Positions 5,559 through 38,414 of a DNA stretch of 47,908 nt are shown piece after piece. The DNA comes from Candidatus Colimorpha merdihippi (GTDB lineage Bacteria > Bacteroidota > Bacteroidia > Bacteroidales > P3). The stretch lies in contig JAGHRY010000148.1 in the NCBI GenBank assembly GCA_018066145.1, positions 1-47,908 of the forward strand, in the 5' to 3' direction. A model generated the notes under the pieces. It saw only the letters and a list, made by a program, of their open reading frames with translations, did not search any database and was not told the origin of the DNA. A program made the translations under genes and the position numbers. Each line of letters starts with the position of its first letter. The stretch's first letter is position 1.

Positions 5559-6059
5559 ATGAGGATATACCTTCTTGGATATATGTATAGCGGCAAAACC
5601 ACCTTAGGCAACCAATTGGCTAAGTGCCTTGGATATGACTTCGCTGACCTAGACCAGATGTTCGAGTTCCGCTACCATACCTCCATCCCTATTTTCTTCA
5701 AACGCTACGGTGAAGAAGCCTTTCGAAAACTCGAGCAGCAGATGCTCCACACCACCTCCACTATGGACAATACCGTCATTGCCCTCGGTGGAGGTACACC
5801 TTGTTTTTTCGATAATATGGAATGGATTAATGCTCACGGTAAATCGGTATACCTTCAGATGAGCGTAGAAGACATTATCTCTCGAGCCCATCGATCAAGG
5901 AAAATTCGCCCTGTGCTTGCAGATAAAACGTCTGACGAACTTCACGCATTCATCACCCACCAGCTTTCACAGCGTCAGAAATTCTACGCACAAGCCCACA
6001 TAGCCCATCCTGCGGCCTCACCTAACATTTCACACCTTGTTCAATCACTTTTTTTATAA
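5559..6059 (+). CDS. aroK: Shikimate kinase
   Basis: Phosphorylates shikimate at the 3-hydroxyl with ATP in chorismate synthesis. The 166-residue P-loop protein has Walker A GYMYSGKTT (residues about 7-15), the shikimate-binding DLDQ aspartate (about 32-35), FRKLE with its conserved Arg and Glu (about 55-59), the GGGTP loop (about 76-80) and the RPVLA lid-region motif (about 113-117). Length is typical. The gene lies 8 bp after the DUF4249 gene and appears to be last in the glnA-led run. Its stop codon is inside the T-rich 10-mer that is repeated on the far side of the structured element that follows, so the element may have inserted right at the gene end. Confidence 0.93.
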   Translation: MRIYLLGYMYSGKTTLGNQLAKCLGYDFADLDQMFEFRYHTSIPIFFKRYGEEAFRKLEQQMLHTTSTMDNTVIALGGGTPCFFDNMEWINAHGKSVYLQMSVEDIISRAHRSRKIRPVLADKTSDELHAFITHQLSQRQKFYAQAHIAHPAASPNISHLVQSLFL

Positions 6060-6115
6060 ACCTATTGGAGGGATTGATTCTCGAAAAAAACAACCACTTC
6101 CTCCGCCCAAGGGGC

Positions 6116-6193
6116 ACTCATCCTACGGGGATCCTACGGGGTGGTTTCGCTCTATAGGAGCGGACAGACCCCGTAGAATCCCCGTAAAATGAG
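6116..6193. repeat. Palindrome I of copy A (tandem repeat within each arm)
   Basis: The left arm (6116-6142) contains CCTACGGGG twice in tandem separated by AT. The right arm (6168-6193) is its near-complement, with three mismatches that become G-T wobbles on the minus strand. A smaller stem, CGCTCT/GGAGCG (6148-6153 with 6157-6162), lies in the loop, giving a nested hairpin. The counterpart in copy B is 38113-38189. Confidence 0.85.
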
Positions 6194-6325
6194 CGTCGTT
6201 AGGGCTAACCTGCTTACCGTTGATTTGAAGTTATTGGAGTTTTCTAGTAGCGAATTGGCAGCAGCAGCTTCATTGACTTCATCAGCTACTAACCCCATAA
6301 GCTCCATAAAAATTCAACAACCGTA

Positions 6326-6384
6326 TCTAGAATCTAGAATGGATTTTTTGATGTATTGCACAAAACGGCGTTCTAGATTCTAGA
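6326..6384. repeat. Palindrome II of copy A with conserved 31-nt loop
   Basis: Arms TCTAGAATCTAGAA (6326-6339) and TTCTAGATTCTAGA (6371-6384) are perfectly complementary over 14 bp. The 31-nt loop is the same in copy B except for one base. The loop contains TGCACAAAA (6357-6365), which is complementary to TTTTGTGCA at 6487-6495. Confidence 0.85.
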
Positions 6385-6511
6385 TTGGGGCATTTTTGAG
6401 AAGCTTCAGCACTGGTCGCCAACATATTTAATTAGCTACCTTACATATACTTAGAATAAAACCTACCTAGAATGCACCGAGACTGATTTTGTGCACATCA
6501 AGGGCTGACTG

Positions 6512-6547
6512 ACTAGAAAATCTAGAATTGATTCTAGATTTTCTAGT
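6512..6547. repeat. Palindrome III of copy A (perfect 17-bp arms)
   Basis: Arms 6512-6528 and 6531-6547 pair perfectly around a 2-nt spacer and are rich in CTAG. In copy B (37777-37811) the stem keeps 16 perfect pairs, although one A-T pair (6518 with 6541) is replaced by G-C (37782 with 37806). The hairpin lies 40 bp past the end of the minus-strand M23 gene and could act as its terminator, although no long T-run follows the stem. Confidence 0.85.
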
Positions 6548-6586
6548 TGGATTAATTCCGCCAAAGGGTTTTTTATAAGTGTTTTT

Positions 6587-37695: not shown

Positions 37696-37753
37696 ACTTA
37701 TATTAAACGAAAAAATCTGCAGAATATCACACCAGCAGAAAATTTCATCAAAT

Positions 37754-38246
37754 CCCCCTTGGCAGAATTATTCCATCTAGAGAATCTAGAATCGAATTCT
37801 AGATTCTCTAGCTAGTCCAGCCATTGATGTGCACAAAATCAGTCTGGGCAGATTTTGTGCTAAATACATGTAGCCGACTAATTTAGCCTAGCATAAACCC
37901 GTACTGAAAGTTCTCAAAAATGCCCAAATCTAGAATCTAGAACGCCGTTTTGTGCAATGCATCAAAAAATCCATTCTAGATTCTATATATGGTTGATGAT
38001 TTATTATGGAGCTTATGGGGTTAGTAGCTGATGTGGCTAATGAAACAGCTGCTGCCCAACTTCAAAACTCCAATAACTTCAAATCAACAGTACGTCGTTT
38101 GCCCTAACGACGCTCATCCTACGGGGATCCTACGGGGTTTGTCCGCTCCTAGAGATCGGAGCTACCCCGTAGGATCCCCGTAGAATGAGTGTTCTTTGGG
38201 CGGTGGAAGTGGGTGTTTGTTTTCGAGAATCAATTCCGCCAATGGG
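37754..38246 (-). repeat. Structured MITE-like element, copy B (about 493 bp, inverted to copy A)
   Basis: On the minus strand this matches 6060-6568 through long identical blocks, including the palindrome II loop and a 22-base block containing GACTGATTTTGTGCACATCA. The terminal inverted repeats are clearer here: TTGGCGGAATTGATTC and TTGGCAGAATTATTCC. The immediate flanks CATCAAAT (37746-37753) and TACCAAAT (38247-38254) agree at 6 of 8 bases, a weak hint of a target duplication. The 719-bp gap from 37696 to 38414 holds this element and otherwise nothing recognised. It contains a second inverted pair GCACAAAATC/GATTTTGTGC (37832-37860) that is degenerate in copy A. Confidence 0.8.
37777..37811. 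repeat. Palindrome III of copy B (16-bp arms)
   Basis: Arms 37777-37792 and 37796-37811 pair perfectly around CGA. Relative to copy A, one A-T pair has become G-C (37782 with 37806), both sides having changed together. Confidence 0.85.
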
Positions 38247-38414
38247 TACCAAATAAAAATCGAACCTCTATTCAGCGTGATTTTGACCATATACGTACAA
38301 CATTCCCTATCATACATATACGCTAACGCACCTAAACAGAGGTTCGAACTTGTTTCTATTACTTCTCGTACTGAGGATTAATCTTCACTGCACCAGCACG
38401 ACAGACAAACCTGG

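Follow-up and report, generated by a model that had tools for sequence, protein, structure and literature searches.

A composite MITE-like repeat family in the genome of Candidatus Colimorpha merdihippi, probably mobilized by an IS982-family element

Structure and location of the two copies in the window

The stretch of DNA analyzed here (47,908 nucleotides, referred to as the window) harbors two inverted copies of a repeat that will be called family A. Copy 1 (ACCT...GGGT) occupies positions 6060..6569 of the plus strand; it resembles 30 loci of its own genome, and its ends were set by the duplications that flank it. Copy 2, retrieved by similarity search in the same genome, is located on the minus strand at 37754..38247 and shares 81% identity with copy 1. 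Both lie where the preliminary description had placed them, the ends that fit the duplications adding one base at one end of each. Copy 1 is immediately preceded by the stop codon of a shikimate kinase gene, and 17 bp separate its other end from a convergent M23 peptidase gene; copy 2 is located upstream of an ECF sigma factor gene, 58 bp from the start of the latter.

Imperfect terminal inverted repeats (TIRs), already noticed in the preliminary description, are seen in copy 1 at 6060..6080 (left, plus strand) and 6549..6569 (right, minus strand). The three palindromes that it had reported are located between them on the plus strand: H1 (6104..6205), made of 11-nt units, with arms (6105-6152 and 6158-6205) showing 75% complementarity; H2 (6325..6385), with arms (6325-6348 and 6362-6385) that are 83% complementary; and H3 (6512..6547), whose arms (6512-6528 and 6531-6547) are complementary at 100%. 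The corresponding parts of copy 2, all on the minus strand, are H1 at 38101..38202, the H2 region at 37922..37992 and H3 at 37776..37811. Copy 1 is flanked by the target-site duplication TTTTTATAA (best match 7/7), at 6051..6059, where it overlaps the shikimate kinase gene at its 3' end, and at 6570..6578. The duplication of copy 2 matches at 6/7 positions and reads, on the minus strand, ATTTGGT (38248..38254) and ATTTGAT (37747..37753).

The block is non-coding, as had been stated: the longest ORF spans 32 aa in the family A consensus and 25–66 aa across 28 copies, and a coding content was ruled out since no ORF exceeds 66 aa. The claim that no transposase lies nearby stands for the IS982 type, whose Pfam model (PF13612) had zero matches within the window; the Pfam scan of the window covered nine proteins.

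Distribution of family A copies

When copy 1 was used as a query against its own, fragmented genome (3.11 Mb, 320 contigs), at least 103 matching pieces were retrieved, including those of the two window copies. They correspond to at least 30 family A loci plus about ten shorter pieces, these counts being lower bounds because 40 of the 75 candidates were scored. Twenty-eight of the 30 loci span most of the block, with the 5' end missing in two of them (L017 and L022), and the remaining two (L029 and L030) share a similar internal deletion. Shorter parts of family A are found at six further loci, on contigs C219 (where both ends are kept), C35, C196, C147, C14 and C70, while C205, C221, C252 and C287 resemble copy 1 mainly at H1. 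The preliminary description had called for a search of the whole genome and had held that an absence of further copies, or a likeness confined to the palindromes, would speak against it; on the contrary, the 30 or more loci are alike along most of their length, beyond the palindromes.

The analyses of duplications and structure reported below were performed on 28 of the 30 loci, leaving out L017 and L022, which have no 5' end, as well as the shortened C219 piece with both ends. In this alignment the copies diverge from the consensus by 5.7–15.1%; the two most similar copies share 90.7% identity, and all pairs average 84.2%. Since no pair exceeds 91% identity, the burst of family A is old, and no recent movement is visible.

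When up to five candidates were scored in each of 120 genomes belonging to the genus, the full element was found only in its own genome; genome G097 matches family A in short stretches around H1, and a smaller search, of 41 genomes, gave in addition a single piece of 33 bases, in genome G001. The flanks of the window copies share only 64–72% identity with genomes G041, G018 and G020. A phage or plasmid origin was rejected, no similar DNA having been found in phage or plasmid collections, and the exact TIR pattern had no match in viral contigs. The term "undescribed", used in the preliminary description, is not contradicted by these collections, and the literature searched yielded other MITEs only. 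Family A is new within a known kind of element, its interior being unusually composite.

Terminal inverted repeats and target-site duplications

The ends of family A are imperfect inverted repeats of the type ACCC(A/T)TTGGCGGAATTRATYC, the element reading ACCC...GGGT, and the left and right ends of the consensus agree at 18/21 positions. In the best register, the 7-mers flanking the copies match at six or more of seven positions in 18 of 28 loci, 12 of which are perfect. When the partners were shuffled (2000 shuffles), a mean of 0.6 loci and a maximum of 4 reached this level, with zero perfect matches. In this test, the ends of two loci (L012 and L025) were re-set by a rule made for those two. 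The matching 7-mers are target-site duplications; a convincing one is missing in 10 of the 28 copies.

The TIR pattern, searched with up to two mismatches, occurs at 77 sites of the genome versus 4 for the reversed control, and some of the additional sites correspond to the right end of an insertion sequence (IS). This element carries an ORF of at least 273 aa, truncated by the contig edge, whose reading frame reaches the TIR. Its transposase matches the Pfam models DDE_Tnp_1 and DDE_Tnp_1_3 and the NCBIfam model NF033520 (E 4.2e-72), which assigns it to the IS982 family; the comparison with solved structures gave no convincing match (best E 0.86). Compared with the right end of this IS, the consensus of family A matches at 19/21 positions with its right end and at 17/21 with its left end. 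The copies present in the genome (contigs C184, C186 and C98) each stop at a contig end, and this is why a complete IS is not seen there. The possibility that family A is a simple internal deletion of the IS was rejected, because the sequence that they have in common is limited to the ends.

The exact right-end pattern was found in 41 stretches of named genome records, 40 of which carry Bacteroidota names. Four complete IS copies could be bounded (L134, L139, L141 and L159), with lengths of 1023–1104 bp. L141 is flanked by a perfect 7-bp duplication; in L134, L139 and L159, agreement is limited to 4, 4 and 2 of 7 positions, i.e., there is no clear duplication of this length; duplications of IS982 elements are usually 6–9 bp long. 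Within the genus, IS-like DNA is present in 17 of 120 genomes (counting the own genome), often partial or only 66–70% identical.

Palindromic modules in other repeats of the genome

The palindromes of family A are modules common to other repeats. Family D comprises seven loci (L092-L098, on contigs C133, C101, C252, C184:10368, C137, C310 and C100), in which the same three palindromes are placed outside an IS982-type right end, the orientation of H1 relative to H2 and H3 being opposite to that in family A. The module adjoins the TIR and the interior of the IS in 5/7 loci, the TIR without the IS interior in one and just the initial TIR bases in another, which suggests that module and IS end moved together. 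Family B (L071, L075, L084, L086, L087 and L088) is a MITE-like repeat of about 540 bp with IS982-like ends and different hairpins, flanked, in two copies at least, by duplications of 7 bp (TGTACTA in L075 and AAGTATA in L087).

Nature and origin of family A

The preliminary description had left two possibilities open, a complex MITE-like element or a structured RNA, and had proposed a covariation test. A dispersed family of structured non-coding or cis-regulatory RNAs, retained for its fold, would agree with the predicted structure of copy 1, which is better than that of all 100 shuffled sequences (z -9.47 as RNA, -7.08 as DNA), and with the lower variation of the columns predicted to be paired (0.070 vs 0.154 in the unpaired ones). 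However, Rfam gave no match at gathering scores and, in the alignment of 28 copies, 364 of the 601 changed pair cells carry one-sided changes that break the pair (196 keep it), as opposed to 23 two-sided changes that keep it and 18 that do not. The two-sided kept changes are close to those of shuffled alignments in the TIRs (2 vs 1.1), H1 (7 vs 5.6) and H2 (1 vs 0.6); a slight excess exists in H3 (3 vs 0.7, a value reached by 8 of 300 shuffles), and the other predicted pairs have 10 vs 6.1 (reached by 21 of 300 shuffles). Moreover, TIRs and duplications would require a transposon anyway. A structured RNA was thus rejected for family A on the basis of Rfam and of this covariation, the slight excess in H3 excepted, and we regard it as very unlikely. 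An even more improbable origin is that of a REP/BIME-like repeat spread, via its palindromes, by a RAYT-type single-strand transposase: family A is palindromic, intergenic and multi-copy, and H1 also occurs alone, but REPs are described as palindromes of 20–40 bp (PMC3733652), whereas family A is a 510-bp element with 21-bp TIRs and 7-bp duplications; for the element as a whole, this origin is contradicted by the duplications.

A third possibility is that family A is indeed a MITE whose copies have been retained because they serve the host in regulation, as terminators or promoter-side elements, the palindromes being conserved for the host. According to crude ORF calls, 20 of the 28 copies lie between two ORFs, 10 of them between convergent, 5 between tandem and 5 between divergent ones, a count to be read with caution since the other eight copies are too near a contig edge, genes split by a copy are not recognizable and the background consists of only 8 gaps. 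The placement of half of these copies between convergent genes, the start of copy 1 directly after a stop codon and the fact that changes private to single copies are fewer in H1 (0.0085) than elsewhere would be in agreement with such a role. Against it, private changes in the TIRs (0.026), and nearly so in H2 (0.021), are at the level of the unpaired columns (0.028), resembling a neutral decay after insertion, the orientation background is scanty, and the consensus contains no Bacteroidota-type promoter with both boxes. Retention by the host is therefore considered unlikely. The private rate in H3 is 0.017; that of H1 is about threefold below the unpaired columns although its compensated changes are at chance. 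Total variation ranges from 0.037 to 0.077 in the TIRs, H1, H2 and H3, versus 0.155 in the unpaired columns, which suggests that these parts were important in the lineages that kept jumping; the whole pattern can be read as a constraint acting on the lineages that spread, with a mostly neutral decay thereafter.

Four features by which a MITE is recognized are found in family A, i.e., a length of 510 bp without a transposase gene, TIRs, target-site duplications and at least 30 dispersed loci. On the basis of the TIRs, the duplications, the copies, the lack of an ORF and the existence of an IS982-family element with similar ends, it is very probable that family A is a non-autonomous, MITE-type transposable element of about 510 bp of a Bacteroidales species, most likely mobilized by an IS982-family element. 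The "complex MITE-like" part of the preliminary description is thus borne out, with about 30 dispersed copies, and the factor that it supposed to be supplied from elsewhere would be the IS982-family element of the same genome. The enzyme that moved family A was most likely that of an IS982-family element, acting in trans: its DDE transposase would recognize the ends of family A, and the copies would have been inserted in AT-rich DNA via a staggered cut, mostly of 7 bp, giving rise to the target-site duplications. The interior is probably a cargo built from the palindromic modules that are found also in other repeats of the genome.

Among known systems, the nearest to family A as to the mobilizer are MITECca01 and MITECca02 of Cardinium, linked to the IS982-family element ISCca4 (PMC9769881). 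They share with family A ends similar to those of an IS982-family element present in the genome that harbors them, a lineage-specific distribution and a mostly intergenic location; MITECca01, however, is about 240 bp long and retains IS-derived sequence inside its ends, whereas family A is about 510 bp long and has only the ends in common with the IS. BrickBuilt, a MITE of Porphyromonas gingivalis (PMC4596501), is characterized by 23-nt direct repeats, IS5-type ends and duplications in few copies, while family A has palindromes, three in number and separate from each other, ends of the IS982 type and duplications that are mostly 7 bp long. With family A, a MITE family and its likely mobilizer are defined for an uncultured lineage of Bacteroidales, and the interior of a MITE is shown to be open to assembly from exchangeable palindromic modules.

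H1 and the 11-nt-unit hairpins

Family A also leads to a hairpin repeat that is odder than the MITE itself. A covariance model of H1 (R1), constructed from 44 sequences, five of which are from G041, matches 15 of the 120 genomes of the genus, own genome included (E <= 1e-4). In the rest of the order, none of 294 genomes is matched by R1 (E <= 1e-5), a contrast somewhat inflated by the stricter E value and by the scoring of 13 candidates per genome rather than 32. G041 (via the record Horse_feces127) and G097 are apparently the same genome, since the coordinates of their hits agree.

In other species of the genus, H1-like sequences form stand-alone intergenic hairpins (L187-L199 and L205-L258), with tandem 11-nt units (for example, TTCTACGGTNN and NNACCGTAGAA), each corresponding to about one helical turn, and complementary arms. 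The 54 loci considered here, from seven genomes, are a subset picked from the list of R1 matches. Their arms are mostly 25–55 bp long, with perfect stems over 40–51 bp in L208, L214, L215 and L220. A period of 11 was the best in 11 of 11 chosen arms, one being an H1-type arm of the own genome; the unit is not evident in L197. When the better strand of each locus was taken (54 of 108 rows), standard pairs were found in 89.9% of the pair cells versus 76.1% in shuffled alignments (maximum 77.9), and 170 cells were changed on both sides versus 57 (maximum 72). These values support, without proving it, a covariation of the two arms, the alignment being structure-fitted and the copies related. Such covariation might reflect either selection on the structure or a copying mechanism by which the palindromes stay perfect.

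Crude ORF calls place 24 of 52 hairpins between divergent genes, 22 between tandem and 6 between convergent ones (two of the 54 are too near a contig edge), while the other 31 gaps of the same stretches include 4 divergent, 19 tandem and 8 convergent ones. REP/REPIN sequences are similar to these hairpins in habit, both being palindromic intergenic repeats; REPs are without DDE-type TIRs, whereas the H1-like hairpins consist of 11-nt units arranged in arrays. The open-access literature yielded nothing on 11-nt-unit hairpins in Bacteroidales. It may tentatively be proposed that H1 belongs to a class of intergenic hairpins that seems to be undescribed, found only within the genus in the searches performed and defined by tandem 11-nt units, covarying arms and a preference for divergent genes, and that a module of this sort was captured by IS982-type MITEs, which spread it; the hairpins might be structured DNA or RNA regulatory arrays, or be kept nearly perfect by arm-to-arm copying. 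Two of them, L205 and L213 (in G022 and G083), apparently occupy the same gene neighborhood in two species.

Two minor observations concern other contigs of the genome. An element of about 270 bp (L085, at ~733-1000 of contig C305) has ACTCGTTGGCGGAATTAA-type ends on both sides and, as neighbors, lipoprotein-like ORFs including a 400-bp repeat at 82% identity. Contig C287 (L079/L068; L145) shares 99.4% identity with the record Horse_feces127 along 3266 bp; since the window region shares only 64–71% identity with that genome, C287 might be either a mis-binned contig or the outcome of a very recent transfer.
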